Below are positions 12,723-46,313 of a stretch of DNA of 64,000 bases, one piece after another (positions within the stretch are counted from its first letter, which is position 1; each line of letters starts with the position of its first letter). Origin of the DNA: Tubulanus polymorphus. Its lineage: Eukaryota; Nemertea; Palaeonemertea; Tubulaniformes; Tubulanidae. A model generated the notes under the pieces. The model was not told the DNA's origin and ran no database searches. It was given only the letters and a program-made list of their open reading frames with translations. The stretch is taken from positions 1,803,001 through 1,867,000 of the forward strand of contig NC_134025.1 in the NCBI RefSeq assembly GCF_964204645.1, in the 5' to 3' direction. A program made the translations under genes and the position numbers.

Positions 12723-15700
12723 TATTCACTAGATTTTACAAACTGAAACCAGGACAGATAAAAAGTCAAAGACAACAGTGAACAGTCAACAGGTTGGTTT
12801 TGTTTTCAGTTTTGCTGACTGACACTGACAGTGAGTGATTGTTGTTGTTGTTTTTGTGACAATCCGGCAGTTCTCTCGTCCTCTCTCAGTCTCTGTCACG
12901 TGAGGACGTATCAGCAGTGGTGACAGTGACAACTTCATCAATTGACAACTTATCAAACAGCTTTTTGGATGAGATGAATACAAAACAATTACCTGATTAC
13001 AACAATTAGAACACCAATCGTTCCTTACTTATCTCAATCCGACATATTTTCATCATGTGACCGGTTTGATTGAATTGGCTTTCATGAAAACTATGGAAGC
13101 CCTGAGACGACATTGCCAGTTGCTAGTTGCCAGTTGCCAAATGCTTCATGTTTGCTAGCTTTGCTTGTTTGCTTGCTTGAGTTGTCTTCGAAAAGAAAGC
13201 AGGCTCAAATAAGTTTTTTCCCTTACCAATCTTATCCTTAAACAAGCATTTACATGTTAACGCCATTAAAATACTTTGGAAAAAACAGATACTTTTTAAG
13301 ACTGAAAACAAGAAACGAAATTCTTAATATGGACTTTCCTAGATTTAGATGATGATGTACCTTTTAATCCAGTCAAAATTAAAGAAAGACATTTGGGTGT
13401 TTCAAATAATGAGTGATAAGGGTTCAGCTGGGTACAGGCGCGTATTCAACCCGGCAGTGGATGCAGGACGTACGTCCATGATAGTCTGTACCTAATCATA
13501 GTACCTAGCGTCGTTCCACAAACAAAAAACAGTTGTAGGGAACCAGTAATTAGGACAGGTATTCAGACTCTAACGTACATGATAAACTCTGCTGGGTTAA
13601 CCAGGATACATACAAGAGAGGCAGCTAGAGATACAAAAACAAAGAAACTCCATCGACAATCTCCTTGCCTTAGAGGCCGCTGAGGAAACCACCAATTAAG
13701 CATTTAACATGCTAAGAATGCCTGGGTAGACAAATTCGATCGAACTGCATGCAAACCCAGATGGAATTTGGTCAACCTTCCGAACAATGACCAAACAACA
13801 TCCTAAGACGAAAGACCGCAGTCATCAAAAATCTTAATAATTAACAACCATAGGGCCCATAACATAGGGCTGACCGTACCTATAATAGTACGGGACTTTA
13901 GTTTGTGTTACGAGCGTGCGTGAATAGATTCAGTTGAACTGGCGTATAGTAAATTCCATGAGATAATACCCACCCACGATCATTCGACTGTGACCATGTG
14001 AATCTGAAAACACAATCGCGTCAATGTATTACGACATAGGCTACTGAATGAAACATAATGTGATTCATACCTTCCACAGCCAAATCTCCAATAGTTTACC
14101 ACCTAAATTGCAAACCAACCTCCTTGCAGAATGATCTTTCAGGATCGGTTTTGGTTTATTAATGAGAAATATTGTAACAGGCATACTTTCAATATTATGG
14201 AAACTAATGTTCAAAACATGTTTTTTTTAATCAGATGTATTTGCCTTTATCCATCGCTTCCTCGACGGATTTCTTCTCAAGATTCTGATAAAATGGCCAC
14301 CCTGTCCTTGATGTAGACTTAAGGTGCTCATTTTTATGGGACTGTTTGAGTTGGATGACTCCTGACGGTGAACAATCTACGCGCAGTGTCATTTGAACTT
14401 CTAGATATTCCCTGAGATGTTATACTCTCTCATTCGACCCGTAACCCTAAAATCTAGCAATTGAGATTTGGATATATTTGCCTAAATCTGTCCTCGTGGT
14501 GGCTTCAAGCCCCTTATCAGGCATCGGTTTTATTGGTTGTTGAATTTGAGCAGCCATAATTAAGTTAATTTGATATCCTGAACTATCGATATTTTCCTTT
14601 TCGATTTTGTTTACGTTGCTAATTCTTCTTTTCTCGTCAAGGCTTTTGTAGGTGGATAATTTAAGCCTACATGGGTAGGCCTAGTTAGTTGCTTATCTTT
14701 GGTGGTAAGCTTTTTTATAGTCGGATGGGCTTATGTGGTTTGTGAAAATATCCGACCGTGAAACTAAACCACAGTCAGGTTACTGACTGGTAGGCCTACC
14801 TTTCCTGCTTGCCTTACTTTTTTTTTACTTTTTCATTACCGGTGACGTAAAATTAACAGGCCCTGAGAGGATAACCTAATTTTTTCAAACATTTATTACC
14901 CAAGGAGTGTATCACTGCCATCTTTCAGTGGGCCAACGAGTTGTTGTTTGTGAAATCTGGATTCGAACATAATTTGTATTTTGAAGTTTTGAACTATCAA
15001 CTTTGACGTGGAGAAAGTTTTAAAAAATAGAACAATCTACTGTTCGGATAATTATCATTTAATTATCTAGCTCTACCGCTGAAAATGGATCCAATATGAT
15101 TTATAGTATTAGGATACCGGTACAAGACACGAACGACGTAAATTAAGCAAGATAAGTAAACTGTAGGCCTTATGAACAAATACGGGTAGAGTACATCGAT
15201 TAGTTTATGTATTCGCCACAGTATTTAGGGGCAGCACTAGACGATTGAGATTTGACAGAGCTGTGGCATGCGAGCAGGAAATTCATCCGCGATCCTTTTA
15301 TCTGACACTCACAATTAGATATTAGTCAATAACCCTAGGTCGTAAATCTAATTTGTATCTAAAATAAACATTAAAACATCAATCAAAACGGGTTTTCAAC
15401 TGACGTGGACTGAAAATCAATATCGTTCAATAAAATATCTACATTTATGTTTGCATTTGATACTGTAGACTGCGGAATTTCTCCACAATCGTTCAATCGA
15501 GTACTAGTCTTTGACACGATCAGATGGCGTTCTCTCGAGCTCTTCAGCTTTTGCTGTGTTTCCTGGCGATCTTGTGGCGCGGTGTTTTTCGGAGTGGTGG
15601 CGTGGCGCCGGTGGCGGTGGCGGTGGATGGAGTTATGTGTGCGGTGGATGGAGTTGTGTGCGCGGTGGATGGAGTTGTGTGCGCGGTGTGTGCAAGAGGA

Positions 15701-15827
15701 GTGAATGGAGTTTATATGTGTCGTATGAATGTGTGGTATATTTTATATCTTATTTTTTTCATTATTTTTATTATATTTGTTTTTTCATTTTTTTTTCTTT
15801 CATTTCATTCGCCCCCGCCCTCTCAAT
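12723..15827. other. GDAP2 upstream region, no gene seen
   Basis: Immediately upstream of the GDAP2 start is a G/T-rich stretch (12830-12910), presumably promoter or 5' UTR. The remainder has only short open frames without family resemblance. Around 14640-14800 TAGGCCTAC-type sequence occurs in both orientations. At 15600-15700 there is a GTGGATGGAGTTGTGTGCGC triplet repeat that creates artificial Val-Cys-rich frames. I see no supported gene. Confidence 0.5.
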
Positions 15828-16452
15828 CTCAGGGTTTCAACTGGCAGCGGCGGAGTCTGAGTTCACTAATGTGGCCTCTTACCAGCTAGTGCTGGAGTGC
15901 TGGTGATGCGGATGTTACTACGGGGGACCTACAATCAGAATAAGATGGGGGCGGTAGCAATCTTCGACTGAGGGGGCTGTTGGATCTTTAGGTCCCCAGT
16001 TTGGTCCATTCTAGTCTGAATCTGCTGGTTCATTGCCTAAGGCTACCCATTGGCATCTTGCTGATGGGCTCCCCGTTCACCCAGTTTTTCCTCTTGTCAT
16101 CTGGGTGTCGGTTGTCTTAGGTGGTGTGCTCAATTCTCAATTGGGTCCCCAGTTTGGTCCATTCTAGTCTGAATCGGCTGGTTTCTTCGCCTGAGGCTAC
16201 CCATTGGCATCTGGCCGATTGGGCTCCCCGTTCACCCAGTTTTTCTCTCTCATCTGGGTGCCGGTTGTCTTTGGTGTTGATGCTTGAAGATCGGATATCC
16301 CCCGAAGCCGAAGTTGTTCGTCGCTTCCCGTCTTACTCTGATTGCGGGTCCTCCGTAGTAACACCTGTGTCATCAGCACCCCGCCACTAGCTGGGACGAG
16401 GCCACGTTGGAGAACTCCGACTCTGCCGCTGCCAGTTGGAACCCTGAGAACT
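15828..16452. mobile_element. Large inverted-repeat element with an internal tandem duplication
   Basis: The arms 15828-15984 and 16286-16452 are inverted copies of each other (diverged). Matching blocks are CTCTGCCGCTGCCAGTTG on the right against CAACTGGCAGCGGCGGAG on the left, and TACTCTGATTGCGGGTCC against GGACCTACAATCAGAATA. The loop is two direct copies of about 150 bp (about 15985-16135 and 16136-16285) sharing TCCCCAGTTTGGTCCATTCT and GCTCCCCGTTCACCCAGTTT. RNA crossing it would fold into a long hairpin. It could be a fold-back transposon or a decayed composite element. Its base composition is markedly more GC-rich than its surroundings. No recognisable protein is encoded. Confidence 0.65.
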
Positions 16453-18825
16453 GGACTTTGCTGTTATCAGCCAGAAGTTCTGTGCTGACTTCTTTCTCTC
16501 AGGTTAGATCAAATATGATGTAAAGCCGTTAAAACTATGTATTACCAGCGTCTATATGGTTGTACTTCGATTTAAGCCGTGAAACTGTGTAAATTTTATT
16601 TTTCATCCAAGGTTTTTTTCCCCTTCCATCAAAATCTTTCCCAATTTTTCTTGTCGCAGCGGATAAAAACGTCTATTTTGTATTCGTGAACTCTGTAATC
16701 TCGAGCATCTTTTGTGTACTTCAAATACATCGTAAACTCTGTATCTTTGATTTCTGATTCAGATCCCTCATCCTGGCCTTTCATCTTTTTCATCATCCAC
16801 TATCAAAGTTAGATATAGTTGCAAATTCTGTCTTGTTAATTAATAATTATGTACTATTTAATTTCAGCTCATTTTAAGCAAACTTTGGGCAATAGTGGTA
16901 TATCAGGGGTTGATTTTTACTAATTCCAAAATACAGGTGTTTGATTCTCAGAAAAAAGCCTGGCATTAGGAGGGGCTACTGGTTATTTGGTGGTCATTTC
17001 TTACTAGCCTTAAGGCAAAAAAATACAGACATTCTGTTCTAAAAAAAACACTTATCGTGTGGGGAAGAGGTACATGGTTTGGCTGTATATGTACCTAACC
17101 CAGACACGAACGGAGCTGGCATAAATTTGTGACACAATAATAGTTAATACTACTGATGATAGGGGTGGTTATGGGATAATTAAAGCTTTCTCAAACCACA
17201 GTGGTCAGGCTCTGTCTGACAAACATTTTGACTTAATATATAATATGCTCTCTTCATCTTGTCATTTCGCTAACCAGAAGTCGAACTCCGATGGTGGGAA
17301 GTCTGGTGATACCAACATCCGTAATCCGACTCTGGGATTCAGTCCGATGGCACCATTGGACGTTCCAACAACATCATTACCTAGTCAACACGCGGGACAA
17401 ACAACTTAGAGGATGAATGAGGATATAACTAAGGTTAATTACTCATTAAGGTATTACTTAGATATCTACAATTAAGGTAAATTCAATGATGTGAAATTAT
17501 TTTGAATTCAAGTACATTGACATTTAAAATGTAGCTGATACATGTGTATCTGAGCACATTACTTATTTATCTGTATCTAAGTGAACCTATTGTGTCTTCA
17601 TACAGCTGTATTAGTTTTGATACATATTGCCAAAATCATTTAATGCAGATTTACTTCCGATCGAAGGGAGATAAAACAAATCTGTACGTGCACAAATACA
17701 TTCCTGAATTTGGGAGGGGAAATATTTCAATTTCACTGTGTATGTCAGATTGAGAGCCTTATTCTGACAGGATATCCTGAACTTAGGTCTTATTCCTCTT
17801 GCTAATAGCTCTCTTTTACTAACCCCTCTCCTTCAAACTATATTCCAGCATCATGTCTTGCACCGCACCAGGGAGGTCCGGTCATAACAAGGTCTTTTGA
17901 TCCTTATACACAGTGTACTGTAAAAGGGAAATAAAGATTATATTGCAATTCGGGTAAGGGAATTTCTAATTTACCACTAAAAATGTGATTTTATCTTAAG
18001 TTCTGATGAATTCAAATAGTGATGAATTCACCACATCTGAAATTCTACTCGTGTAGGTTTTCAGGCTCCATATAAATATTGTTCGACTGACAATTAATTG
18101 TGGCTAGTATGATTACTAATTAATGGATCGCTTAGATATCAGAAAATTAGTTAGAATTAATTCAATATAACGAATTTAAGTTTATTAAAAATAGCGCAGT
18201 GGATGAGACGACTGTATCGTGCAATGTTGTCTGCGTCTAACTGGGCCACATGTGTGTGGGATCTGTTGAATCAGTTAGATTTTGGGGAATTCTGGGTTCG
18301 TTATTAAGCTAGTTATACATCATAATCATAAGATCATTGTATATATTTTACCAGCAATATTTAAAATTACTGAAATGGATTAGAATACCATTCACTGGGC
18401 ACAGATGTCTGTGGGAAGAATACATATCTCTTAAAAGTTTATTAAGTGGCGATGAAGTTAATTTAATAATACGAACATTGTAAAGCTGGGAATCGAAATG
18501 TATATAGGGGCAATTTTACCAGCAGGTTTGAACTATATGATACTATTAATCAACTAGTCATAAAATGTACAAAATGATCTTCAACCTTGTAATATAGATA
18601 TTCTAAATCTCGATGTATTAAAATAGGCAGTACCCAATCAGACGCTTGCCGGTTCAGACTGGTTGGAAGATTAATTGAATGCACCGGAACCGAATTTCGC
18701 GTTATGTGCTTGTATTTCAAGAAAAGAAAATTTATGTAAAATGGACCGCCGATCACACAACTATATCTGTACTTCGATTTCCGATTTTGAAAAAACTTTA
18801 CACGGAGAAAGCAAAAGTAAAAAAG
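16453..18825. other. Gene-poor interval
   Basis: AT-rich sequence with no family-recognisable frame. An isolated exon-like segment is listed separately at 17279-17410. Near 16503 there is a donor-like CTCAG|GTTAGA. I see no promoter or RNA gene I can support. Confidence 0.4.
17279..17410 (+). other. Possible orphan terminal exon
   Basis: After the acceptor-like TTTCGCTAACCAG comes a frame open to a stop at 17410 that reads KSNSDGGKSGDTNIRNPTLG and then FSPMAPLDVPTTSLPSQHAG, ending in QTT. Its Ser/Pro/Thr-rich composition and more balanced base content differ from the flanks. I do not recognise it. It could be the last exon of an unannotated plus-strand transcript or a chance frame; a matching upstream exon was not found. 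Confidence 0.25.
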
Positions 18826-18980
18826 TAAAACTTAGACAAAATTATCTTAACCTTGTAAACTTTCGGACTATTTACATGAAAAGAAAAGCAAAGAAATGTA
18901 AAATTAGACAAAATTCAAACATTGTAAACTTTCGGACTATTTACACAGAAAAAACAACAAAAGATATGTAAAATTAGACT
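18826..18980 (+). repeat. Two-and-a-bit copies of a ~72-bp tandem repeat
   Basis: The unit begins GTAAAA(C)TTAGACAAAATT and contains GTAAACTTTCGGACTATTTA. It occurs twice, with the start of a third copy, and runs directly into the first module of the exon-intron array that follows. Confidence 0.7.
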
Positions 18981-21830
18981 ACCAACTTAGGAGACCCTCG
19001 CCGATAATGAACCCGGCAATCATAAAAGGTAACTTAATATAGTTTAAATTATTGCGATAAATTCTAAATGAAATACTTTGTCATTACAGGATATCTTCTT
19101 TTAATCATTGCAGCTAAATTTCAACTATAAGAAAAAACCCAGCTTGAGATCAAACACTCGTCCAAAATCGACCAACTGGAACAGCGCACAGCCAACTAGA
19201 ATCAACCAACCAACTTAGATGATCCACGCCGATAACGAATCCAGCAATCATAAAAGGTAACTTAATATAGATGCAATTATTTCGATTCATTCTCAATGAA
19301 AAGTTTTGTGATTACACGATATCTTTGTTTACTCTTCAGCTGAATCCTATCTTCATCAAACTGCCCAGCTTGAGATCAACAACTCATCATATATCTACCG
19401 ATAAGAACAGCCCACAAAACAATCCAAGCTTAAATCAAAGGCATCAATGAACTTAGAACATTTTAACTGATACGGAACTCAGCAAACTTGAAATGTAAGT
19501 TGATATTTTATGGAAATGATAATGATGAATTCTAAATGAAATAATTTGTCATTACAGGCTATCTTCTTTTAATCATAGCAGCTAAATTGCAACTATAAGA
19601 AAAAACCCAGCTTGAGATCAACTACTCTTCCAAAATTGACCAACTGGAACAGCGCCATTTGCCAAATTTTTGTAGTCTCTCCTACTGTAAACAGAGGGCG
19701 CATGGGTCTGCTGGCATAGCCACTGACCTGTATTTACAGGATATCTTTGTTTACTCATTTTAAGCTAAATCCTATCTATATGAAACTGCCGCTCATGAGA
19801 TCAACAACTCGTTTAAAATCTGCCGATTAGAGAACAGCACTCAGAAGGGGCCAATTTGAATTGATCTCAACATCCACCAACCAACGTAGGAGATCCTCGC
19901 CGATAGCGAACAAAGCAATAATAAAAGGTAAGTTGATATACATGAAATTATCTTATATAATAATACCGAATTGTTGTACCGACTGCTCCGTCGTTACTGG
20001 ATGTTTTGCCCTGAAAATTTGCCCGATGGTAGATCTCGACGTCTTTTATCGCTTGGGCATGGTGGTTTCCACGGGCTTTCCACTAGTTACGATTAATTCT
20101 GAATGAAATATTTGTATTTACAGGATATCTTTGTTTACTCTTTCAGCTTTATCCTATCAATGAACCCGCGTTTGAGATCAACAACTCCTTAAAACTCTGC
20201 CGATTAGAGAACAGCGCACAGAAGAGGCATTTAATTACCAAAATCTATGCACCGGTCCACATTGCTGATGTGATATATATCCGGCCATCATTAGTCTTAA
20301 ACAGTGATGAACTAATGCTACTACTACAACAAATAATTAGGCAGTTGGGGTTCGAAACAAATGTCCGAACACACCGAGGATCCAAGCCAATACTGAAACC
20401 AGCAATCGTTAAAGGTAAGTTGATTGACATGGAAATTATGATCAATGCTATATAAAGAATTATGTGAATACAGGATATTTTCATTTCAGTAAAATCTCAT
20501 CTATAGAAATAGGCCATCCTAAGATTAACTACTCAAAAATCTACTGATTAGAAAAGCCAACGGAAGATTCTAACTTGAATTGAACTCATCAACTACCACA
20601 GAAGAGTGCAATCATGAACAGACTACCTAACCGACACTAAACTCAGTTATCACAAATCACATCTATAAGAAAAAGCCCATACTAAGATCAACTAACCTTC
20701 TAGAATCTACTGATTGGAACAGTCGACAGAAGTATGCAACTTGAACTTAGAACTCAACCAACTCCAACTCCTAGCCGACACTAACCCGTTATCTTGAAAG
20801 GTAAATTGATTTACATGGAATTTATAATGATTAATGCTCTATGAAGAATTGTGTATATTGTAAGATATTGTATAATTACAGGATATCTTTTATTCATTTC
20901 AGCTAAATTACATCTATAAGAATATGCCTAAGATTAACTAGTCAAAAATCTACTGATTCGAATAGCCAACAGAATATTCCAACTTGAATTGAATTCATCA
21001 ACTACCACAGAACGAATTTAACTCATGAACCGACTTAGACGATCCTAGCCGATACTAAACTCAGCAATTTTGAAAGGTAAGTTGATTCACATGGAATCTA
21101 TTAACATTAATGCTATATGAAATATTGTGTGAATACAGGATATCTCCTTTTGTGCATTTCAGCTAAATCACATCTATAAGAAAAAGCCCATACTAAGATC
21201 AACTAACCATCTAGAATCTACTGATTAGAACAGACAACAGAAGAATGCACTGAATATTATAATTGAATTTTACTAATCAACCAACTTAGAACACCTAGCC
21301 GACACTTAATCCAGTTATCTTGAAAGGTAAGTTGATTTACATGGAATTTATTATGGTTAATGCTATATGAAAAATTGTGTATATTGTAAGATATTGTATA
21401 ATTACAGGATATCTTCTTTTATTCATTTCAGCTAAATTACATCTATAAGATCTCTGCTCAGCCTAAGAGTGATTAGTGAAAAATATACTGATTCGAATAG
21501 CTAACAGAATATTCCAACTTGAATCATCATCAACTACCTCAGAACGAATTTAACTCATGAACCGACTTAGACAATCCTAGCCGATACTAAACTCAGCAAT
21601 TTTGAAAGGTAAGTTGATTCACATGGAATCTTTTATCATTAATGCTATATGAAATATTGTGTGAATGCAGGATATCTCCTTTTGTGCATTTCAGCTAAAT
21701 CACATCTATAAGAAAAAGCCCATACTAAGGTCAACTAACCATCTAGAATCTACTGATTAGAACAGACAACAGAAGATTCCAACTTGAATTGAAATCATCA
21801 ACTACCACAGAAGAGTCCTACTTGATTTCA
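18981..21830 (+). repeat. Tandem array of exon-intron-like modules
   Basis: A module of about 230 bp (early copies) to 270 bp (late copies) is repeated about nine times. Each has an exon-like part ending AAAG|GTAA(G/C)TT, a 60-90 nt intron-like part containing AATGAAAT or TATGAAAT, and an acceptor ACAG|GATATC followed 20-25 nt later by a second acceptor CAG|CTAAAT. Donors are near 19029, 19257, 19495, 19928, 20415, 20811, 21076, 21328 and 21609. Acceptors are near 19089, 19557, 19739, 20123, 20472, 20880, 21138, 21408 and 21670. The exon-like parts end in related sequence that translates as R(R/G)S.PI.NPAI(I/V)K in several copies. Most copies carry stops in every frame. One copy (20124-20414) is fully open. 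This may be a spliced non-coding transcript or a decayed gene with tandemly duplicated exons. Confidence 0.7.
20124..20414 (+). other. Stop-free, phase-symmetric exon within the module array
   Basis: From ACAG|GATATC to AAAG|GTAAGT this copy is 291 nt long and open throughout when read in phase 1, and it also ends in phase 1. Such 1-1 exons can be duplicated without breaking frame. The peptide includes GYLCLLFQLYPINEPAFEIN, a helix-like NSDELMLLLQQIIRQLGFET and the basic tail RTHRGSKPILKPAIVK. It contains about 100 nt (roughly 20230-20345) absent from the other copies. I do not recognise the protein. A run this long without stops in AT-rich DNA is unlikely by chance, but neighbouring copies have stops, so coding status is unproven. 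Confidence 0.4.
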
Positions 21831-21910
21831 ACTGCATAGGCCTAGAAGTCCAGATGAGAAATTCAGCCAGCAGCGGTTTATCGCCCAATGACAGATTTCT
21901 TCTACAGGTG

Positions 21911-22040
21911 GAGCAGAGACAATGCGTGTGTTATAATCACTTATTCAAGAGCAGCACAGACAATGCGTATCTCATAAACACTTATTCAGGAGCAGCACAG
22001 ACAATGCGTACCTTATAAACACTTGTTCATGAGCAGCAAC
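21911..22040 (+). repeat. Three-copy 41-bp tandem repeat
   Basis: Units start near 21911, 21949 and 21990, with GAGCAGCACAGACAATGCGT followed by ATAAACACTT(A/G)TTCA. It lies directly after the last module of the exon-intron array, where a terminal exon would be expected. AATAAA at about 22161-22166 could end such a transcript. Confidence 0.75.
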
Positions 22041-23929
22041 ATCAGTAGAATATGTAAAGTATTGATTTATTTTGTGTATTACCTTTTTACAAACTAGTCT
22101 GATGTGTAACATGGGTTTCAAAATGCGTCTTAAAATTCACTGTCTATTTGAAGAGACGGAAATAAAGAAATAGTTTTAATGTTGATTAATGAAAATTGAA
22201 GATAGATAATTAGGGCTCTGGGCCTGAGAAGGAACTATTCATATTTGAATATTTCAATAAAATGGCATCCTAATTCTTTCATATTGATTAGGCAAACTGT
22301 TTTCGATTTGTAAACAGATGTGTCATGTCCTTTGTAATGTGACAGAAAGTTCCTTCTTGGAGTCTCATGAAATCTTCACTCCATTAATTGATGGTATTGA
22401 TCGCGTTCAGCGTCACGGTTCGACGTAGGTCCGTTGAAATGTACCTAAATTGAGATATGATATCAACAGGATAGTTCAGATAATCTTCATACTTAGTTAA
22501 ACATAGCTTTGCATCATTTGTAAAAGTGACATAGTTTGGTTTCTTAGAAACCTTGATTCATTTTATATTTCCTAAGAATGAAAATGATTTGCATAGCCTA
22601 AATGTTCAAAGGTAGGAGAGGGGTAGTCAGTTAAACGGTTGCAACTTTTAAATGTAATAAAGGAAGTTGATACCTGATTAGTTTGGACTCCTAAACTCGC
22701 CCAGCAAGTTTATGGGCTTTGAATAAAGATGTTTTGAAAATGATTCCGTGGCCAAAAAGTGGGATCAATATAAACTGGCTACGCCCTTGAATATCATCAC
22801 GTAGTCATCATATCATCACATAGACTATAATGTTTGGCAGTGTTCTGTGTACAAATAATAAGTTTATATACCAAAGTGTTGATGTATTTTTTGATACCAT
22901 AATTTTTTCGAAGGCCTATGAAAGCGATTTGACTAATGAGTAGAATATCTCGATTTTCACATTGAGCTCCCATGTGGATGATCATAGCTAGGTATATGAA
23001 AACTTGTATCTTAGTACATTGTATCCACAGAGGTATAAGAGAGGTATAGCTAGGAATAATGTGATATAAAGGAATAAATGATAATGGCCAGCAATAATTT
23101 TGATCGTTTTAATTCTGTTTATAGCTGTTTTAACTTCTTTCATCGTCATCCATATCATAAGGTTGAGTGGCTTTCAATGATCGCTTAACTCCAAATCGGG
23201 GTGTTTAATGATAAACGATTATTTAGGTGCAGCAGTGAATTTGTAGCACTTTTTTAAAGTGAGCCCATATTTCCACCGGTAAGAAATTCCCGATGATGTA
23301 AATAGTAAAAAATTGTACAAAATACATAGAACATAATCAAAGAAGTAAATAAATAAAAAAAACAATGAATAAAAAATACATAACAAAATAAATATTAAAA
23401 AAAAAAACAAATCATAACTAATAAAAAAATAAACAAAAACGAACAAACAATTAGTTAACTTCCATGATTATACTTACTTAAAATCATAATAAAAAAATAA
23501 ACAAAAACGAACAAACAATTAGTTAACTTCTATAATTATAGGGCCTTCATCATCAGGAATTTTTTTTGAATAACTTAATCTAATCATTAAAGGTTGTTCT
23601 TCACATGGAACAACCTTCTCTAGAGTTTCCCAACCTCTTGAGATCATTTCTGTTGTTGTTTTAAGCATTCTATCGGACAGTTAGTAATAAACAAAACAAA
23701 TAACCATAAACCTTAACTAAACCAAACACACTAAAAAAATATCTGTTTCGATAGAATGCTTCAAATAACTGATGAAAGATCACCCGCCCTTTTACCTATA
23801 GCACACCCTGTCACTGCTGTTACTGTTGATCGTTTTAGGGATAATATCTGGGAGATTTTACATTTTACTTTATTTCAGAAAGAATGTTAAACAGCTATAA
23901 ATGTGATTAGTTATCGATAGTAAAATTAT
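22041..23929. other. Intergenic, no gene seen
   Basis: AT-rich. It contains a direct repeat of ATAAACAAAAACGAACAAAC followed by AATTAGTTAACTTC (23428-23469 and 23494-23531), a short hairpin AAGGTTGTTC/GAACAACCTT near 23591-23618, and an inverted pair AGCATTCTATCG/CGATAGAATGCT (about 23664 and 23748). These look like small transposon remnants. No protein-coding signal. Confidence 0.5.
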
Positions 23930-25790
23930 TGTCATATTTTCAAATAACTTTGTATTAAATGTATCAAATGTACGAACTGATAATGTTTGAAAATCTTAAG
24001 TTAAGACGAGGGACAGCGGAAGCGCGACATTGTAGGTTTTGTCTCTTGTTTAAATGCTTTTATGTTGAACTGTTATTAAAATACAGTCCATTTGTTAACA
24101 AGGTACTTAGATGATAATTCCTCGAGTAAATACCTATCATTTAGCAAGGTGTAATTTTTGTCATGAGAATAAAACGACACATACGTGTTCATTATTCATC
24201 TTAAAATTTTTTGGCTGTTTAGTTAGGTTTATAGCAACCATCAAACTGAGGTTTTATCGAATATAGAGGAGCATTCTTTTCTATAAATAAGGAAATATGA
24301 ACAGTGTTGATTAGTAAATTGTCCTAGCTATGTTTTGATAGCTATTGTCGGTTTTACAATATATGGGGCCCGATTCAAATCTGCACGCGATGCATTCCCG
24401 ATCTTGAAAAGTTATCGAATTCAGTTTAATTGTAGATATCTCAGTGATCTGTTATTTGTAATTTACCTAGATATATGGATAGATGAAATATGATGATACT
24501 CAATATATCTTAATTAAAAAACCTTCAAAATACTTTGCATTAAACGTAACAATGTTGAGAAAATAACATTGATAATGTTCGAAAACCTCAGGCAAGGTTG
24601 GCAAAACTCTAGCTATCTTACTTAAAACTCTAGTTATCTTGTAAAATAATGTTAATGGAAATGAAAAAATAAAGATTGATTAGTTAATCTCAAGCTTTCA
24701 AGATTGAATCTGTAGGTTTTATTAGTTTTAATGCTTTTATGTTGAACTGTTTTTCGAATACAGTTCACTCATTTGTTAACGAGTAACTTACAATTCCTCA
24801 AATACAAAGCAAAGTTTGCGAAATTTCGGTTTTCTTTTAAGAATAATGTTTAATGAAACGAAATTAGAGATTGATTATTTGAGAGAGCGAATTTGTGGAT
24901 TTATGGAGTTTTAATGTTTATATGTTGGAGATATGTTATGTAGTTCTTTGATGATTGATGATACATAAACAGAGTATCTTGAATATCTCTTACATTGTCA
25001 TTTGAAGAGTTGATATGATAAAATGCTTCATATTTCATGAAATAGCCAAATGTCACTTACGCCCAGTGATTTCATGAATGTCAAATTAATAGTCTTAGAC
25101 ATTCAGACTGGTCCCAATTGTCAGTGTTTTATGGATCAAAGTTTACAATTCTTTGTGTTATATTATTATTATCCTATTGATTCAAATTTTCTGAATCAGT
25201 TGTAGTCGAAATGTTTTTGGTGAATAAAAACCTTGAAATACCTTGCAGTAGCAATTGTGATGTTAAAGGCTAGTACGGTAATCTTATTTCTTGGATAAAA
25301 ATAAAGCTAAAAATGATACCTTGTTTTTCCTGATCGGCCAGCTGTCATTTTGTAAATAACAATGAAATTTGTATTCAGTTAATCTCTATAACTGCCGAAA
25401 ATGTTATGGTTAGCTTGATCATGATTTTAAAGTAATACCTATAAGGTAGATAGGCAGCTGGCCGGGTCAACTTTTAAGAGTAAAAATGTAAATCAGATTG
25501 ATTCAACATTAAATCTTACGCTTTCCAGGGTAATTGGCCAGGTTTACCTCTGGTTTTAGTGCGGGGAGCCATGGACTCTAACAGTTTAGAGACCATGGTT
25601 GTTGCCCATAGACATTTCCGTTTAGAGTCTATGGTTGGACCAGGGATGTATAAACTCTAGTTTATAGTTTATGCGTCCATGGTTGGACTGTTTTTGAAAT
25701 ACAGTCCACGTGTTTGAGGAACTTACGTTATAATTCCTCGAGCAAATACCTGGCATTTTGTATAATTATTGTATGATAATAAATATGTTT
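23930..25790. repeat. Three decayed copies of a ~600-700 bp repeat
   Basis: Landmarks recur in order: a (A/C)TTTG(C/T)ATTAAA block (23945, 24533, a weaker one near 25240), then TGCTTTTATGTTGAACTGTT (24054, 24730; partly at 25682), then AATACAGT(C/T)CA and AATTCCTCGAG(T/C)AAATACCT (24117, 25730). The copies are strongly diverged and spaced 585-710 bp apart. The third ends just before the ENOPH1 promoter. MITE family A copy 2 is inserted in the third. Confidence 0.55.
25294..25480. mobile_element. MITE family A, copy 2 (inverted, diverged)
   Basis: Reverse-complemented, this matches the interior and right end of the 2800-3029 element: GTTGACCCGGCC, GCCTATCTACC, ATCATGATCAA and terminal AACAAGGTATCATTTTTAGC. 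The opposite terminal repeat is eroded or missing. Confidence 0.6.
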
Positions 25791-26044
25791 GTTTGAAATT
25801 CTTTATTTTATTCATTAAGTTAATAAACTATTCTGAACTTTGTTAGTTGACCAGTCAGTGGTTTTTTGCAATCCACCTCTTTTTTCAACCCAATATTTCC
25901 ACCAACATTGTCCGGAGACGAGGATGTGCGGAAAACATGATGATGCGATACCGCCAGGTGGCAGCACTGTACGGCAAGAGACGCGTCTTTCTTTGTTATA
26001 ATTTTCGCCGGTTTTATTTTCCATCTGTTTTACTCGTTTTAATA

Positions 26045-28099
26045 ATGGCTGAAGCTGTAGTGAGTCAGAAAAGAAGTATCAGCGAATGTATCGATCATTT
26101 AGAAGGTGTTAAAGTGGTTTTACTCGATATCGAAGGAACGACCACCCCGATTACATTCGTTAAAGTAAGTTCGATTCTACTAAAACTGGTCTGTTCAATA
26201 TCCGCTCAGTTAGTCTGAAAACCAGTCGTTGTTACCGGCTCCCTACAACGGTTGTTTGTAGAACGACGGCTAGGTACTAGACTACCGCTCAGTCTAATCC
26301 AAGTTATTCTATTCATTCGTTTTATTTTATAGGAAAAGCTTTTCCCCTATGTAAAAGAGAATGTCGAAGAATATTTGAATACTCATTACGATGAGGATGA
26401 ATGCCATGAAGATATTAAAGTGCTTCGAGAACAGGTACGTAAAACATTATTAAGCTTGCCACCAACTCACTGAGCCGATGATTAACATATAATGATTAAG
26501 TAACTAATGTCAGAGTAAAATATATGATAGATAAGCCAAGGCCTCCTCTCCAAACCTCATTTGTGAGAAGTTAGTAGTTATGTTTTCAGACATACCTTCT
26601 TTTAGCCTTTGTTACCCCAAGATTGTCTGGTAGGTATCGAGATTATCTCTCCCTAGCCTGTACACAGTCCTGTGTGATTTTATTTGAAGGCTTTGAAAGA
26701 TGAAAAGGAAGAAGTAGAAGGCGTCGTAACAATACCGAATAAAGATTCCGAGAAAGATGAAATTATTAAAAAAGCCGTTGAGAATATTCTATGGCAGATG
26801 TCTCTCGATCGTAAAACAACCGGTCTTAAACAACTTCAAGGTCACATATGGAGGCACGCGTATAAATCAGGAAATATAAAATCTCCGTAAGTATTTTAGA
26901 TTTTAGGACAAATAAGAAAAGTAGTAAGTTTCTCATCATTTCTGATGGTATTGTTTTCTGTGCGATTTTCTCAGAATTTTTTAAATATATTTTGAAATTT
27001 TGAACTGATAAGAAACTAGTTATTTTATTTAGCCTTACTGTGTTTATTGATATTCAGTATTTTGAGAAATTATACATCATTGTTATTTCAGAGTTTACGA
27101 AGACGTTTCAGACGCTATGAAGAAATTAACTAAAACCGATCGGAAAGTTTATATCTATTCATCAGGGAGCGTTGAAGCTCAGAAATTGATATATCGTTAT
27201 TCCGATCAGGGAGATTTAACTGAGGTCAGTACATAGTTCATCAAATATGTGTCCACACAGACTGACCACTTCTCCCTTTGTACTGACAAAATACTCCTCG
27301 TATTATTGGATGTTACACAATCGTCATTCTCTCCAATTCTACTCCAATTCATCGTGATAGCGACCCATCCCTGCTCCAACTGCCCAGGAGTTAGAACACT
27401 GGAGCAATCTCAACGGTCGCGCATGATCCGAGAGGGAAATGAAATATCAATATTAACATCACAGGTTAAGATCTATGATTCTAATTACAGTATCTGTCTG
27501 GTCATTTCGATACAAAAATTGGAGCTAAAGGTGATAAAGAAAGCTACACAAAGATAGTCGAGGAGATTGATTGTAAACCTGAAGAAGCTCTTTTCTTGAC
27601 TGATATTCCTAAAGGTAAGTAAAGCTTTCGATGAACTATGAAGAGTTCGTACCCCGCTGTTTAAATGTTGGTATATTTATAATCACATGGTTCCTACAAA
27701 TCAGGGAATTCCTGATTGCACAGATAATCAGGGAATTCTGACTCATTTCTTGAAAATCGGGGAATTTGTATTTTTGTTTTTGGTGTCTTGTTGGTCTTGC
27801 TAGTGACGAGTGGCACGAGGAACCATTTGATAAGAAACAGTCCCCAATGCGGATATCTTATGATTTGATCGAGGAATTATTGAGCAAGGATTGCCTGATC
27901 TTTTAAGAACCCTGTGTAAGTAGTAAGGTTTTGAAATTAATTTTTATCATCTTATTTTTGTACAGAATGCAAGGCTGCATTAGAAGCAGGACTGAAAGCT
28001 TGTGTCGTTATCCGTCCTGGGAATGCAGAATTAACCGAAGATGAAAAGAAAACCTACAATCAAATCTCTTCTTTTGCAGAGTTATTTCCTGAAAAGTGA
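26045..28099 (+). CDS. ENOPH1: Enolase-phosphatase E1 (methionine salvage)
   Basis: Bifunctional cytosolic enzyme of the methionine salvage pathway. It enolises 2,3-diketo-5-methylthiopentyl-1-phosphate and then removes the phosphate to give the acireductone. Six exons join in phase: 26045-26164, 26333-26434, 26690-26886, 27092-27224, 27491-27614, 27966-28099, giving 269 aa (human 261). It is a HAD-superfamily hydrolase. Motif I is VVLLDIEGTTTPI (residues 24-36; the variant DxExT is normal for this family), motif II is IYSSGS, and the later motif is ALFLTDIPKE. LQGHIWRHAYKSG is the family's cap/substrate segment. I chose the ATG at 26045 because it starts MAEAVVSQKRS; an open frame runs further upstream from 25847 but that part resembles nothing. 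The gene stands alone on the plus strand. Confidence 0.97.
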
Positions 28100-38100: not shown

Positions 38101-41100
38101 TATAGTATCACGCTTACTGTCAATGATTCTATACAAGGCGCTTATAATGAAATCCACGGTGATGACTTACGCAATATTACAGATTTCATCATTTTTTTTC
38201 GAGTTCGAATTACTGCCATAAACACTGACAAAGCAGTCGTCCGTCCTTTATTCAATTTCCGATTTACAACAAAGGCTACTCATAAAAATACAACAAAATG
38301 AGTGGATATTTGATATGAAATCACTTACGTGGTGAAGGTGTATTGAAGTTGATCCGTTGAGACAAAGGCATCGGTTTCGGGCTACTGAAAATAAACAAAG
38401 AAATTTGTTCATCAATCCATTCATCAAAATCCCTGCGCGCAGGATTTTACCCAGCTCGTCGTAGTAAAATTTGACACGTAATTTTAGACGGAAACGTTAT
38501 ATGAGATGTCAGTACGATTGAAGAAGTACAAACTGTTCGGAATTATTTATTAGTTCGATACAAAATTAACGTCAAATGCAACGAAATGTCAACAAAAACG
38601 ACGACACGGCGCGAGACTTTCCGACTTCAAAACATTCTTCGTCTAGAATGGTTACTATGGATACATGGAAAGCTTGATCACAAGTGGCGATGATGGAATA
38701 CTAATCAGATTCACTAAGAAACATAATGAATGTAGTGAGAATGTATCCTGAAATACCGACAGATATATCTCAACCTTCCTCTAACTCTCATCTCTATATA
38801 ACTTATATCTGATATAAATCACTGGAAAAATATCATTCTGTTTGCTTTAAGTTTAAAACGGAAAATACAGCACTTGAAAAAGAAATAAGTCAGAAAATGT
38901 TTCTTCAGGGTAATGATATATTTTTGACGTTTCGACTATATTCTAATAGTCATCTTAGGAATACTAAGGTTACGACATAATCATTCCTGAAGATGACTCT
39001 CAAAACATAGTTGAAACATTGAAAACAAACCATTTAAGTAAATGAGACTTTTTCGGACTCGTTTTCTCTCCAAATTGGGATTTTCAATATTATGAACTGA
39101 GTGTTTCACCGATTGGATCAGGTTTGCCTCGAGATAGAATAAAACATGTCGTCTTATGACGCGAATGATTGAAGATTTCAACGAGAAAAACTGCTACAAA
39201 AACTGAACCATTTGTATTGATGAATTCTAATGTAAAACCAGATCATCCGCACAGAATTACGCTAAGCAATAATAGACACTTTACGTTTGCTGTTAATTTG
39301 ATAAAGTGTGAAGCAATCAGGAATAAGATAGCCACGTTTATAATCAGGAAACCATGGTAACGTATAAACACAAGTAATTACGAATTCAGCCAATAGTGCC
39401 GTAAAAACGAAAGAACCGAACTATGTCAGTTTTGTAGCTGGAAGGCAAGGCGTCAGAGGAGAGAGAGAGAGAGAGAGAGTCAGAGGAGAGAGAGGAGAGA
39501 GGAAGAGACAATCTATCTCTCTTACAGTGATATTGATGTTAGAATAAAATCTATCATCTTATTTAAACCCAATACATTTCATTCAACGCAGGGTTAATCG
39601 GTACACGCCACCTGATACCTGATACCTGATACCTAGTTTAATTGTAAATCAACTAGAAATGATTTTGATTTTTTAGAGCATTTTGAAAGTTTTGGAAGAA
39701 GTTGAGCTCTGTTGAGTAGAAACTACAAGTAGTCGTTGTCAAGTCCGCTTTTTTATCTTCAGAATTCAGAATCTCAATCCAAGAATTTCTGGAGGCATTC
39801 ATAGTGCGCATAAACATTACTCTGATAATCAATTGGAGTAGAAAATCTGGCGGTAATTATCCGAGAAAAACATAACACATGATTAGACACCTATAAGACC
39901 GAGGCTTAAATTCAATTTTCAAGACTAATTGATTTGGAGGTAATTGCGTAAGATGAAAAACTAAGCTAATCACTTTTCAATGAGGTTTAAAAACAATTTC
40001 TTCCCCCTCGATAGCAAACACAATTTGCGTCGGATAATTCTATAAAGTTAAAAGTGTTTTCCGTCCAGGAGAAAAAACCGAGCGTATTTTTATTACTAAA
40101 GGAATTTGATCTAAGTTCAAAGCGAAATTGAAACTATCTTCTATAATTCAGTGTCGCGAATCACTTGCAGCCAACTGTAAATAAACCCGATTCCGGAATC
40201 TGATGTCGAGAAATAAAATAAGAAGTCATTGATTGATCTTTCTTCATCATTTTATCCATTATGGCGCGGAATATTCACATAACAACAAAATAATGACGCA
40301 GCGCTGCGACAAGACCTGGTAGAGCGCGGTACGCGGCGCGCGGCTAGCTGCCGGCAAACATCGCAAAATAATAACAAACGTTTGGTAGTTTCTATGGTAA
40401 CGAGGACTCCGCGGTGCGGGTCCTTACCAAACAAAAGCGGTCACAAAACGTTACACAATTAGCCGACTGATAGTTCTATCACGAACTGAACCCCGTAGAA
40501 ATATTCATCATTTATAAAAATCCTATGATAACAAGTTATCAGAACAACATTTAATGAGCTCGCCCGCTTGACATTGATAGGTGTTACTTTCCACAAACTG
40601 GGTTGAATTTCACTTAAACAGAAAAATACAAATTTAACTAATGATAAACATCAGTTTGATTAGTGACAAAATTTGATAAACCATGAATCAATTTTAGCCA
40701 TAGCTTGAGGTAGTTTGAGGTAGCAGGAGGTAGCAGGGTGTAGCTGGAGGTAACAGGATGAAGCAGGAGGTAGCAGGAGGTAGTTTGAGGTAGCAGGAGG
40801 TAGCTGGAGGTAGCAGGATGTAGCTGGAGGTAGCAGGAGGTTGTTTGATGTAGCAGGAGGTAGCAGGATGTAGCTGGAGGTAACAGGATGAAGCTGGAGG
40901 TAGCAGGAGGTAGTTTGAGGTAGCAGGAGGTAGCTGGAGGTAGCAGGATGTAGCTGGAGGTAGCAGGAGGTTGTTTGATGTAGCAGGAGGTAGCAGGATG
41001 TAGCTGGAGGTAACAGGATGAAGCTGGAGGTAGCAGGAGGTAGTTTGAGGTAGCAGGAGGTAGCAGGATGTAGCTGGAGGTAGCAGGAGGTTGTTTGATG

Positions 41101-44100
41101 TAGCAGGAGGTAGCAGGATGTAGCTGGAGGTAACAGGATGAAGCTGGAGGTAGCAGGAGGTAGTTTAAGGTAGCAGGAGGTAGCAGGAGGTAGTTTGAGG
41201 TAGCAGGATGTAGCAGGATGTAGCTGGAGGTAGCAGGAGGTAGCAGGAGGTAGTGGTCTGGAGTAAGGAATCGTAGAGATGCAAACTATCTATAAAGACA
41301 CTAACCATCAACCCATGCGGCTGTGTTTAAATAGTTTCAATTCGGTAAATTGCAGTTGTTAAGAAGCGCGGAGCAAGATTTCCCATTGGGACAGAAGATT
41401 ACAGTAATGCAAGTGGAGTGTTTTTACCATCAATCTAACATGATTCTATTTGCCTTCGAAACTCGGCGCCGCCGCCGAGTGCCAAGTGCTCGTTCAGTCA
41501 GGTATCAAAAATGAAACCATTCATCGCTGTACGTCACATTTTCTAACAGATGTTCTTATATTTTGACGAGTAAAATGAGTTAATGTCTGACAAGAGAGAT
41601 CTAGAGCGTTTATGGCTATTCTTCGATAAAGAATGTTTTATATCAATTGAAGTTTGAAATAATCGCGGATGCGTTGAAAATAATGAAACAAAAATGAATC
41701 GTCGATATTATTACAACTGCGGTATATAAACTAACCACCTTCGTAACACCAAAAACACTACTTCTATTTCTCATAAAAGTTATTGCTCATTTCTCTTGCT
41801 TCCTGACCATCGCCGAACAGCAATGTCAACACAAACCATCCTTGTTGCTTTTAATGAAGGAAATAGAATGCACAACCCTTGTCTATGAAAATACTGTCGA
41901 GCTTTTCATTTACAAATAGCGAATTAATGGCGCCATAGCATAGCAATTAATGCGTGTTTTATTAGTTCATCGTTTGAACCGTGAAGGTTATTCCTTTAAC
42001 CGTTAACGCAGCTCCTCCTTACGCTAATCGGTATCTAAACGTTTAAGCGGTTTGGTAAAAATGGATGCAGGAAATTTGATACGGTACCGATCAATCAGAC
42101 AAGTCTAAACGACAGTGAGAAGAGGTGAGAGAAGGATACAGCTATTGATTACACGCTACTTTATCAACCGTGTAACAAACCACACGACCGACCGTTTATC
42201 AACGAATCAAACTGATTTCTATTGCTATGATAATCGTTATAAAACATCGGATGAAAGTGAAACGAATGTTTCAGGAATCTGTGATGTTGCAGACGTATTT
42301 CGACGTACAGTCAACAAATCATGCTATTGACCTTTCGCTGTAAAATCAACACATTTTAAAAAGCTTGTACAGACACTGTATAATCACTTACACTAACATA
42401 TTAACCTATATATATCAATAGTTGAAACAAGAAGCACTTATGTAGAGCAATATCTCCTAATATAACCTTCAAGCTAGTATTTTTTAGATTATTTGATCGC
42501 CTATAGAACCAATACATCATGCAACCTGGTGCCGAGTCCATATCTTGGTAACTTACCTATTCAGTGAACTATTGCTATAAGACTGAGTCTGTTGAGGGTT
42601 AGCTAACATCTGTAATTGATGATAAGGGTGGTATGGGGTCTTCCTGAGGGCTTGTAATAGATTCGGTCTATATTCCGGATCTATACACCATAATGAACCT
42701 TTACCAATACTCTGAAAATAACAAACAAACAATAGAGAATTCAACAATGAATCGATTCATTATAATTTACATGTTGAAACAAGTGGATGAGGGGGACGAG
42801 GGGGAGACGAGGGGACCGGGGGGACAGGATGATCAGATGATGGATTCGATGAGTGTTGCACTCGAGGAGATCCATCCGGTGTCGCTAGTGTGCATTCAGA
42901 CAGCTGAGTCCCGGATATCTTTTCAGATTCAATTCAAATTTATTGATAATTTCTCAAATTTTACTAAGATGAATGAAAAAAGTGAGAGATTTGAATGATT
43001 TGTGTTTGATGCACGCGGTATCAGTTCTGGGATGCAGTTAATAAGGGATTATTTTCAATTATATCGTTTGTGTTTACACTTGACACCTCGTCTCTGGCAG
43101 TTGTTTAATCACGGTTCAGTCTCATCTTTGAACAGTTAAAACCGATCAATTATCAACTGCTGAGAAGCCGGTCGCCAGAGATACAACATTGAAAAATAGA
43201 ATTTATTTCAGATGATAAATGAGTTTGTGACAGATATGAACTAACTGAAATCTGATGTCTATATGTATTTATGATTAACGGGACACAGCTGCTGTCCCGC
43301 TGCTGCTGTCCCGCCGCTGTCCCCTGAGACATACACCCAATTAATATCGCTATGGTTACCACGAGTAACATCTGAATTAACAAAATTAAGGAATTTATTT
43401 CAAAATTAAACACTACATAAATCATTTGTGTTCGGGGAAATTATTACTATTAGAGCAACTGAATGAGATAAATGATTTTGGACAAAACGGTCAAATAGTG
43501 TCTCACGTGGAGAAAATTATTTACAAATAAGCAATGTCCACTGTTTGGTTCATTGCCAGGTATAGTGAGTAACTTCATTAGCACCCGTTGCTCGTGGTTC
43601 CTTGGCATCCCTTTTTAAACACTGGTATTATGAAAAATATGATTACTTCATACACCAAGATCGAGCCCCAGGATTTAGCAGTTATTTTGCAATGCAGTGA
43701 GAGGAAGTGGATTTCGAGGTTTTAAAGAGAATTTCGACTCCCTGTTAAAAATCCTGGGGATACCCATGAACCCGATTAACCGCGTTTAAATGATTATTTT
43801 CGAAGATGATAAAAGAGGCAAAATTGCGAAGGTGATTCCAGCTCTGATCAGACATGCATTCTACACCGCGCGTGAAGAACAATGTTACTAATAAATCTTT
43901 GTCAACATATGTGACTCAATCCATAAAGAGGAGACCCTGGTAAGTGACTGGCGTAATAAGAAACATTATAGAAGCTTTTCACTAATAACAAAATGAGAGC
44001 TCAAAATCAAATAAGAATCAAGCATCTCCATGGAAACTAATTAGTGAAATAAATCTCTTGAGGTCAATAGAGGAGGAATGCACTGAAATCAGCGATCCGA

Positions 44101-46313
44101 TCTGATGCGGGTATTTAGACAGTTCACTGAATCATGCAAACATTACTTATAATCTTCTATCATTAACTGAAACATCCAGATATTCTGAACATTTTCATTT
44201 TTTGTGTGTAATTCTATTCGGGCTATGAGTTGGATTGGACAGTAAAAGCGATCGCATAGAGAAGATTTGGCCGGGACCTGGTCCGTGTAAAACCCCACAA
44301 TGATTGCATGACTTTACAAGGTTTATTTGAAAATATTTTGGGTGGTTTCTACCTACCTTCATCTTCAGACTAAAATATCACATTCTAGACTGAAGCAAGG
44401 TGGTACGAACTATCTAAATATTCATATAATTTGATAAACTTTTTAGTCATTCAACTATAGTCAGATTTTAAATTTTTTGTTTCATCACGGATATTGTGAT
44501 CTAAGAACCAGTTAGCATCACACGGAATAATTTGACCCACGCCAAAATCTGGCAATAACTGGGTCAAAAATGCTTACGCGATCACCACTCATCATGGCGC
44601 AGGAAGTGGATATGGTCCACTCTATTGAATCTAACACTCATGGATTGCCGGGATTAACAATAATGGCTTCATCATTAGCTATAAACTAACAGCCGGAATG
44701 TAACATTGTACTCAGCATCCTCATACACAGCACCAACTTCCTATTACTATTTACAAATCAATCAGTAGGAAAAAACTGTGTTTCTATTTAGAGAATAGGG
44801 TCACCAGGTATAAACACCTCCCTATCTCACATACAGTCTTCAAATCAGTTCATTGTAATAATGATGATTAATTATAGATTCGCGATGAATCAGAATCTGA
44901 ATAACTGACAGGCAATCGCTGAGTGTGAACTAACTGCCTGTGGTCAAATATTCATAAAATGCACATCCACAGACAGACATTCCACCGAGAATCGGTTACC
45001 AAATTTTACACTTTTTTTAACCACTGAAAAGAATTTACTATTGGCCAATACAAAATACATGAAATACATATAGATATTTAGAACGTATTTGTCAAAGACC
45101 GTTTTCATATTGAACAACTACAGCTGGTTGAACAGAATGGCAATGATTATAAAACCCCGAGCAACACGAGGCAGACGGCATCTATTCAGCAATTGTAACA
45201 ACAATTTAACGGAAACAGCTGTAGTCATATAGGATCTGTGTGTATGCTGGTAAATATATGTTCTATCATTAGTTAAATATGTCATGTATTCAGCAGGCAA
45301 ATAGATAGCATATTCTATACACACATAGTATTCTATCTCATATTCAAGCTACCTCCAACCACGTAGAAAGCCAAGCCGAGAGACCCTTACTTCGACCCTA
45401 GAACATTTGCTATCCCTATAGAGAAGAATCCTAAAATGATAACTAAAACAATAACAAAAAGTCCGAAAGGAATCCCTTAAGATGACAATTAGAACATAGT
45501 CGAATAAACAACTAGCTCGAGGAATCATTTTCCGACTTTATATTATTTGTTTCGTAATTATATATTCATTATTCAGCTCTATAGATTAACGTCATGATAT
45601 AGTGTTTTATCACTGGTTATCTCAACTTCTACCCTTGTAAAGCCAAGTCAAAAGTGAAACCTAATAGATCTAAATATTACCTGTCCTTTTTCCTTGTCGA
45701 CTTTCTTGAAGCATTTATTTAGTGACAGATTATGCCGTACAGAGTTTTTCCAACCGGTCGGCGCGTTTTGGAAGTACGGAAAGTGAGTTAATATCCAGTT
45801 ATATATATCCTTAACCGGAAGTCTTTTCTGAGGCGAATCCTCGATCGCCATAAAAATAAGACAACTAAAAGAGTACGGAGGTTTACTATTAACGTGTTTG
45901 TGAGGATTGTACGGCACGTGAGGAGGATGTATCTGAGGACCTCCGTTTACAGTTTCCAGATTTCCGTCGGCGTTCTCCTTTTGACACTCGCCGTCGATCG
46001 TATCGGAACTCGGCCCGGCGCCGGGCGCCGCGTTCATGTTTTTTAATAGATCCGAGTCTTGTAACCACGATAAACTCGTCAATTCTTCGTCGTCGTCCAT
46101 ATCTGACGATTTATCTAAACTTATTTCTCCGAAACAGCTTTGACTGAGCGGATCGGTATCGGACCCATCATCGGAATCCATTAATTGTAACGCCTTCGAT
46201 AAAGCGCTTCCCGGGAAACTTTGACTTAAACTATTCACTAAACGTTGTCTCATCGAAGAGTCGCTTTCATCTATCGGTTTTTCCGCTTCCATCGTCGCTT
46301 TTAAATCCTTCAT
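35179..46313 (-). CDS. FOXN3: Forkhead box N3 transcription factor
   Basis: Forkhead transcriptional repressor of the FOXN2/3 (CHES1) group, acting in the nucleus. Seven coding exons join in phase: 45681-46313, 42557-42711, 38329-38384, 37630-37680, 37043-37117, 36242-36299, 35179-35647, giving 498 aa (human FOXN3 490). The acidic N-terminus contains [18 protein letters not shown], like the FOXN3 EDEELTNLNWLHE segment. The forkhead domain spans about residues 142-235: [51 protein letters not shown], then exon 2 [15 protein letters not shown]. The forkhead is split by a 3-kb intron after KEKGQ. The Ser/Asp-rich C-terminus ends with DDEEMK and LLNLAGIK, matching the FOXN3 DDEEMKEAAGSLLHLAGI block. 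FOXN2 is the alternative, but the C-terminal match favours FOXN3. An acceptor TTTTTAG just before the start suggests non-coding 5' exons further upstream. Confidence 0.95.
35700..36240. other. FOXN3 intron 6 with decayed GGGCAAGT repeats
   Basis: Between the last two coding exons, 35710-35930 contains several copies of GGGCAAGTAG or its complement (CACTTGTCCC) in both orientations, suggesting an old fold-back or minisatellite. No other feature. Confidence 0.35.
39348..39361. promoter_or_regulatory. X-box-like palindrome (FOXN3 intron 2)
   Basis: GAAACCATGGTAAC, a near match to the RFX-factor X-box GTTNCCATGGNAAC. Weaker in its left half-site. Confidence 0.35.
39455..39508. repeat. GA-rich microsatellite
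   Basis: A GAGAGA run interrupted by GTCAGAG, in FOXN3 intron 2. Confidence 0.85.
40388..40401. promoter_or_regulatory. X-box (RFX-type) motif, FOXN3 intron 2
   Basis: GTTTCTATGGTAAC matches the X-box consensus in both half-sites. It lies in a GC-richer island (40258-40440) inside the intron, so it may mark an internal enhancer or alternative promoter. Confidence 0.5.
40701..41252. repeat. 10-bp minisatellite, about 55 units, in FOXN3 intron 2
   Basis: Monomers are variants of TAGCAGGAGG, TAGCTGGAGG and TAGTTTGAGG. A higher-order unit of 12-13 monomers is marked by TAACAGGATG at 40751, 40881, 41011 and 41131 (130, 130 and 120 bp apart). Most monomer junctions read GAGGTAG on the plus strand, so FOXN3 pre-mRNA (minus) reads CTACCTC. 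Confidence 0.9.
42712..45680 (-). other. FOXN3 intron 1
   Basis: Intron splitting the forkhead domain. It includes a G-rich purine stretch at 42786-42832 and a GCTGTCCC repeat at 43287-43322. An X-box-like GTTACCACGAGTAAC sits at 43355-43369. No exon-like frame with family resemblance was found in the rest. Confidence 0.5.

Follow-up and report, generated by a model that had tools for sequence, protein, structure and literature searches.

A tandem array of short introns at 18981-21830 of the window, by which we mean the whole 64,000-nucleotide stretch of Tubulanus polymorphus DNA that was analysed, is the interior of a dispersed mobile element of about 14.5 kb and not a stand-alone gene. That the array belongs to a mobile element which also occurs at many other sites of the genome is new relative to the original prediction. 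From the comparison of its copies, we give a probability of roughly 0.6 to the reading that the array is the transcribed central part of a large, protein-less, IS3EU-like DNA transposon whose introns are selected for being spliced.

Results

Structure of the array

The interval 18981-21830 is a degenerate tandem array with nine splice donors and ten distal acceptors, in order, and corresponds to the tandem array of exon-intron modules that had been predicted there. The first intron bases of the donors are 19029, 19257, 19495, 19928, 20415, 20801, 21077, 21327, and 21609, and the first exon bases of the distal acceptors are 19114, 19340, 19582, 19765, 20147, 20490, 20903, 21163, 21432, and 21695. 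A proximal ACAG/GATATC motif (the slash marks the splice point) lies upstream of the distal CAG/CTAAAT, at a spacing of 16-25 nt in the window, mostly 24. Measured to the distal acceptor, intron length in the window is 75-105 nt, except for one intron of 219 nt that contains an insertion. The parts of the array are as follows.

18583..18980, + strand: candidate first exon and promoter region (predicted), directly before the first donor; pieces of it recur in short and medium relatives
19029..19113, + strand: intron 1, 85 nt, GT to distal AG, from motif positions
19257..19339, + strand: intron 2, 83 nt, proximal AG lost (ACAC)
19495..19581, + strand: intron 3, 87 nt
19763..19764, + strand: distal acceptor AG without its own donor in the window
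19928..20146, + strand: intron 4, 219 nt, with an insertion
20415..20489, + strand: intron 5, 75 nt
20801..20902, + strand: intron 6, 102 nt
21077..21162, + strand: intron 7, 86 nt
21327..21431, + strand: intron 8, 105 nt
21609..21694, + strand: intron 9, 86 nt
21695..22255, + strand: candidate terminal exon, AATAAA motifs after it, with a predicted transcript end

The donor of the unit with acceptor 19765 was likely lost through a deletion in the window copy, since several other copies have extra sequence at this place. A 70-bp repeat at 18797-18979 falls inside the candidate first exon and promoter region, and a 41-bp repeat at 21912-22038 lies within the candidate terminal exon; the first two AATAAA motifs are at about 22161 and 22256. 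The last two units of the array form a 532-bp dimer copy, in which 20995-21249 and 21527-21781 are 97% identical over 255 nt, whereas most other units are about 60-93% alike. The recent expansion by duplication that had been proposed therefore describes the last dimer, but the array is not simply young.

The order of donor, proximal, and distal motifs was found again in 16 other element copies examined, occurring once each in three short copies, and is more than chance. When introns shorter than 140 nt with both motifs were counted, each of the three short copies had one, three medium copies had 2, 2, and 3, the long copies had 5-10, and the window had 8. Exons and introns differ sharply in composition, with C at 24% in exons versus 10% in introns and T at 23% versus 41%. 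The pyrimidine tract is 82% pyrimidine compared to 45% in exon windows, and intron length is less variable than exon length (coefficient of variation 0.10 versus 0.38). Column counts in ten further loci showed no position that fits the animal branch-point consensus well.

Extent and dispersal of the host element

The copy of the element in the window was delimited by the following features.

13092..25949, + strand: window copy of the element, from colinear similarity with ten other loci; right end missing
13092..13117, + strand: left terminal inverted repeat TATGGAAGCCCTGAGACGACATTGCC, at the sharp left edge

The ends of the element are inverted, TATGGAAGCC...GGCTTCCATA, and are accompanied by 6-bp target duplications. 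The left edge was sharp in 7 of the 8 loci inspected, the window counted; the motif was not found in locus C10, and C4 and C11 have a common flank before the edge. With up to three mismatches, the 26-base left end occurred at 69 places in the genome and its reversed control at 0. The right inverted repeat was found in C5 and C7 only (2 of 9 right-hand stretches examined). The inverted partner of the left end lies 14.85 kb away in C5 and 14.36 kb away in C7, and the inverted repeats align over 53 columns at 85% and 51 columns at 88%, respectively. Both ends were also present in L039, L041, and L043. The 6-bp target duplication is exact in C5 and in these three loci and matches at 5 of 6 positions in C7; in L040 and L042, it could not be made out.

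When 806 bases of the array were searched against the genome (267.8 Mb in 77 contigs), at least 126 matches were obtained, the window counted; this is a lower bound since only the best 40 candidates were scored. Ten loci were colinear with the window far past the array, in pieces 70-98% identical. The similarity starts at about 13092 in the two loci whose fetched sequence includes an intact left end and ends at 25938-25949 in four loci; the remaining loci run to the edge of the fetched sequence or begin later. The right end, with the right inverted repeat, is missing from the window copy and amounts to about 1.5-2 kb in other copies. Similarity of the window copy to the other loci runs as far as 25949; about 95 bp later comes the start codon of a same-strand gene, which was read as ENOPH1-like. 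Directly after this truncated end of the element, the open frame 25847-26218 (+) is, by reading, what we take to be the first exon of ENOPH1 (acireductone synthase). Transcripts of the element could run into this gene.

The ends fit an IS3EU-like element. IS3EU DNA transposons (with GingerRoot) have termini TAYGG..CCRTA, inverted repeats of more than 30 bp, and 6-bp target duplications (PMC10045372, PMC12730594). The termini here are TATGG..CCATA (left in 7 of 8 loci, right in 2 of 9 stretches), which fits TAYGG..CCRTA, and the inverted repeats of 51-53 aligned columns and the 6-bp target duplications agree as well. The assignment is by the ends; no DDD/E transposase of the IS3/IS481 type was found in the window copy by the Pfam scans. 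The element also differs in its interior, which is about 14 kb long, mostly non-coding, and holds the tandem intron array.

Terminal direct repeats had been considered as the main reading since the left-end sequence recurs near some right ends, but this was dropped once the inverted ends and 6-bp duplications were found. In 5 of 8 loci compared (C5, C4, C11, C10, and C8a), the left-end sequence recurs in direct orientation past the end of the window copy; in C8a, the recurrence covers 1.6 kb at 97%. These recurrences were noted in the right-hand stretches L030-L033 and L021. Inside the element, a cluster of direct and inverted repeats occupies 15827-16449 and includes a 153-bp tandem pair (15991-16284). 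Relatives about 0.8-1 kb long, in which the inner inverted repeat is different (TATGGAAGCCCTGAAACGACATTACG), lie at L041, L043, and further places with the left end; in L041 and L043, the inverted repeat differs after the first 14 bases. These relatives are apparently a small non-autonomous family. The C3 copy (L009, L022; contig 3 near 7306-7310 kb) carries an insertion with long open frames, of 716 codons, that is reverse-transcriptase-like by reading.

Conservation of the splice letters

A profile built from eight window modules, with the splice letters unmasked, gave 196 module matches in 17 copies. The donor GT was kept in 133/133 rows and the distal acceptor AG in 142/142, compared to 123/142 for the proximal acceptor AG. 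Among 236 dinucleotides, donor GT and distal AG rank 1 and 2 and the proximal AG ranks 60th; elsewhere in the module, the share of rows that keep the dinucleotide is 27-98% for AG and 50-77% for GT. All aligned GT and distal AG are retained in 17/17 copies, and position +5 of the donor is off consensus in 60/133 rows. Paired acceptors had been predicted for each copy, and this holds for the distal member of the pair but not for the proximal one, which reads ACAC in the second window module. The idea that two NAGNAG-like acceptors per module would give many isoforms is weakened because the proximal AG was lost in several lineages, although surviving proximal sites may serve.

The modules were aligned and the divergence of splice signals was compared with that of exon bodies, as the original prediction had proposed. 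Mean pairwise identity among 18 module representatives, drawn from 110 of the 196 rows, was 0.866 at the donor (-3 to +6), 0.855 at the proximal acceptor (-4 to +6), and 0.876 at the distal acceptor (-4 to +6), whereas the exon parts reached 0.684 and 0.703 and the interior of the intron 0.743. The splice signals are thus better kept and are the parts most alike between modules, as had been claimed. Conservation around the proximal site (ACAGGATATC) matches that around the distal site, and under the strictest clustering the ten proximal letters reach 0.840 versus 0.790 for the distal ones. Since these ten letters are as conserved as the distal ones, the proximal region would seem to do something. 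It may matter for a reason other than acceptor use, for example by contributing to the 3' splice signal.

A second test used ten further loci from the same genome matches that had not been used before and a profile with the splice letters masked, giving 51 rows. Donor GT was found in 39/41 rows (with one GC and one TT), distal AG in 40/40, and proximal AG in 31/40, where rows gapped at the site (two distal, two proximal) are omitted. In these loci, 11/231 dinucleotides equal the distal AG and 23/231 are kept at least as well as GT, with a median of 0.73; the donor GT is not outstanding here. When both sets were merged and clustered at 95%, 49 lineages remained, of which 49 have GT, 49 the distal AG, and 40 the proximal AG. 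A row entered the clustering if its coverage was 60% or more and none of the four splice columns was gapped; the GC and TT donors were excluded for short coverage. The invariant columns (22/242) are not splice letters alone, but only three adjacent column pairs are invariant and two of them are the donor GT and the distal AG.

These counts could also arise with no selection at all, if splice-like letters look fixed since the copies are young and share ancestry. The median nearest-neighbour distance of 0.025 points this way, as many rows are near copies and the counts are not independent events, and so do the 22/242 invariant columns at 95% clustering. However, exactly the four letters needed for splicing are invariant while the neighbouring proximal AG varies, and the pattern was seen again in the ten further loci. 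In the first set, the four splice letters are among 15/238 invariant columns; four named columns would all fall there about once in 100,000 draws, by an arithmetic that ignores relatedness. We therefore regard an absence of selection as improbable. Selection on splicing, which had been predicted, is well supported by the comparison of GT and distal AG across copies. A GT donor, an AG acceptor, and a pyrimidine tract are kept in evolution, as for spliceosomal GU-AG introns.

About 6.0 private changes were expected over the four splice columns, but none was seen; 76/247 columns have none either, and this is only a weak sign that selection may continue after insertion. It would also suit a host long non-coding RNA gene that is useful to the host and was captured and spread by the transposon, with selection acting on some copies for the host, and such a gene would have conserved splicing without coding. 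Against this, the 76/247 columns likewise have no private change, and relatives of this one element, whether short, medium, or long, contain the modules. No copy clearly outside such elements was seen among the part of the 126 places that was checked. This origin appears quite unlikely.

Search for protein in the element

No Pfam family was found at E 0.1 in the window element (six-frame translation with X at stops). The longest stop-free stretches are 132 codons in the window element and 144-149 codons in a few relatives; by reading, clearly longer open stretches lie in flanking DNA or in the retroelement-like insertion of the C3 copy. An autonomous partner was not found, as none of the rve and rve_3 matches listed for the genome fell between paired ends when they were compared by eye. 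The stretch 17125-17406 looked protein-like at first, being open in most of ten copies, but it was rejected as protein: its variable sites number 13, 25, and 22 by codon position, a stop stands at codon 95 in three copies, and C7 has a frame-breaking deletion.

The original prediction had also allowed for a decayed protein gene, which here would be the remnant of a multi-exon gene of the element whose introns were kept while it was coding and whose exons have since decayed. Introns are usually a mark of coding genes, one frame of exon 20147-20414 runs open for 89 codons, several other exons are open for 21-45 codons from the distal acceptor, and 55/109 exon gaps are multiples of three (counted as rows, not independent events). 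However, stops occur in every frame in 9/10 window exons, and exon lengths are mixed by remainder modulo 3 (30, 18, and 30 for 0, 1, and 2). Exon identity by codon phase is 0.748, 0.687, and 0.705, a spread reached by 861/2000 permutations, and so gives no codon rhythm. When substitution rhythm was scanned along the element, four 500-bp bins reached chi-square 17-21, but in counts that repeat shared ancestral changes. An open reading frame is not kept across the exons, the exception being the one 89-codon window exon. The lack of a Pfam match also stands against a decayed gene, in which the splice sites should have decayed too, and we consider this explanation unlikely.

Search for structured RNA in the introns

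A non-coding transcript with short, repeated introns is reminiscent of snoRNA host genes, and a host gene for intronic small RNAs (snoRNA or mirtron) had been among the suggested meanings of the array. No Rfam family reached its gathering score in the window, and the array gave one match far below threshold, at 23.7 bits versus a cut-off of 62. In folding, 12 representatives of the 109 introns did no better than shuffled sequences (z -0.8 to 1.6). The introns examined are thus unstructured, no recognisable snoRNA or microRNA was found in them, and a small-RNA host is very improbable.

Discussion

The reading we prefer is that of an element interior with introns selected for being spliced. The modules would be ordinary GU-AG introns, most often of 83-87 or 105 nt, that use the distal TTTCAG/CTAAAT, and the proximal ACAG/GATATC about 24 nt upstream would not be needed as an acceptor. 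They appear to have multiplied by tandem duplication, with one intron in short relatives and five to ten in long ones. The element would be transcribed on the + strand through the array, and removal of the introns would yield a multiply spliced non-coding RNA. The selected trait would be the splicing and not the exon sequence. Because exon sequence is the least kept (0.684, 0.703), the act of splicing is more likely to be useful than the exon RNA as a product. As a guess, repeated splicing might keep the transcript stable and exported, or spare the element from silencing.

Several known systems share parts of this arrangement. Helentrons in oyster are non-autonomous, carry satellite-like central tandem repeats, and disperse short tandem arrays (PMC7492417). 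The element described here likewise appears to be non-autonomous and disperses a short tandem array; it is of another kind, and in contrast its repeat units each contain an intron whose splice letters are invariant. Introners are transposon-derived introns that link non-autonomous DNA transposons with spliceosomal introns (PMC9860276), a link also found here. Unlike introners, which insert to become introns of host genes, the introns here are internal to the element, whose ends, TATGG..CCATA, have no GT..AG at the borders. Host genes of snoRNAs with many short introns also combine a non-coding transcript with repeated introns (PMC11028025), whereas the introns here have no RNA family or stable fold. 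Among the literature matches listed (open papers, by titles and the starts of abstracts), there was no transposon with a tandem intron array. What is new here is the mobile, apparently non-coding context together with the comparative case for constrained splice letters.

Non-autonomous DNA transposons are usually thought to require just their ends. Here, an element interior without recognisable protein keeps working-looking introns through many copy lineages. A tentative extension is that such elements form a class of protein-less transposons with splicing itself as cargo, in which a duplicated intron array, under purifying selection on its splice sites, might license the transcript and aid the spread of the element. 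If the transcript is spliced, the family provides natural replicates with one to about ten introns. It would then offer a direct way to ask whether introns guard a mobile element from silencing or raise RNA output.

Other features of the window

A Forkhead-like frame, presumably of FOXN type, was read at 45648-46313 on the - strand, and we take 57463-59899 on the - strand to contain several thioredoxin-like (DNAJC10-like) exons, also by reading. Outside the element, short-period tandem arrays with 20-bp and 32-bp units occur at 40701-41253 and 52143-52465, respectively.
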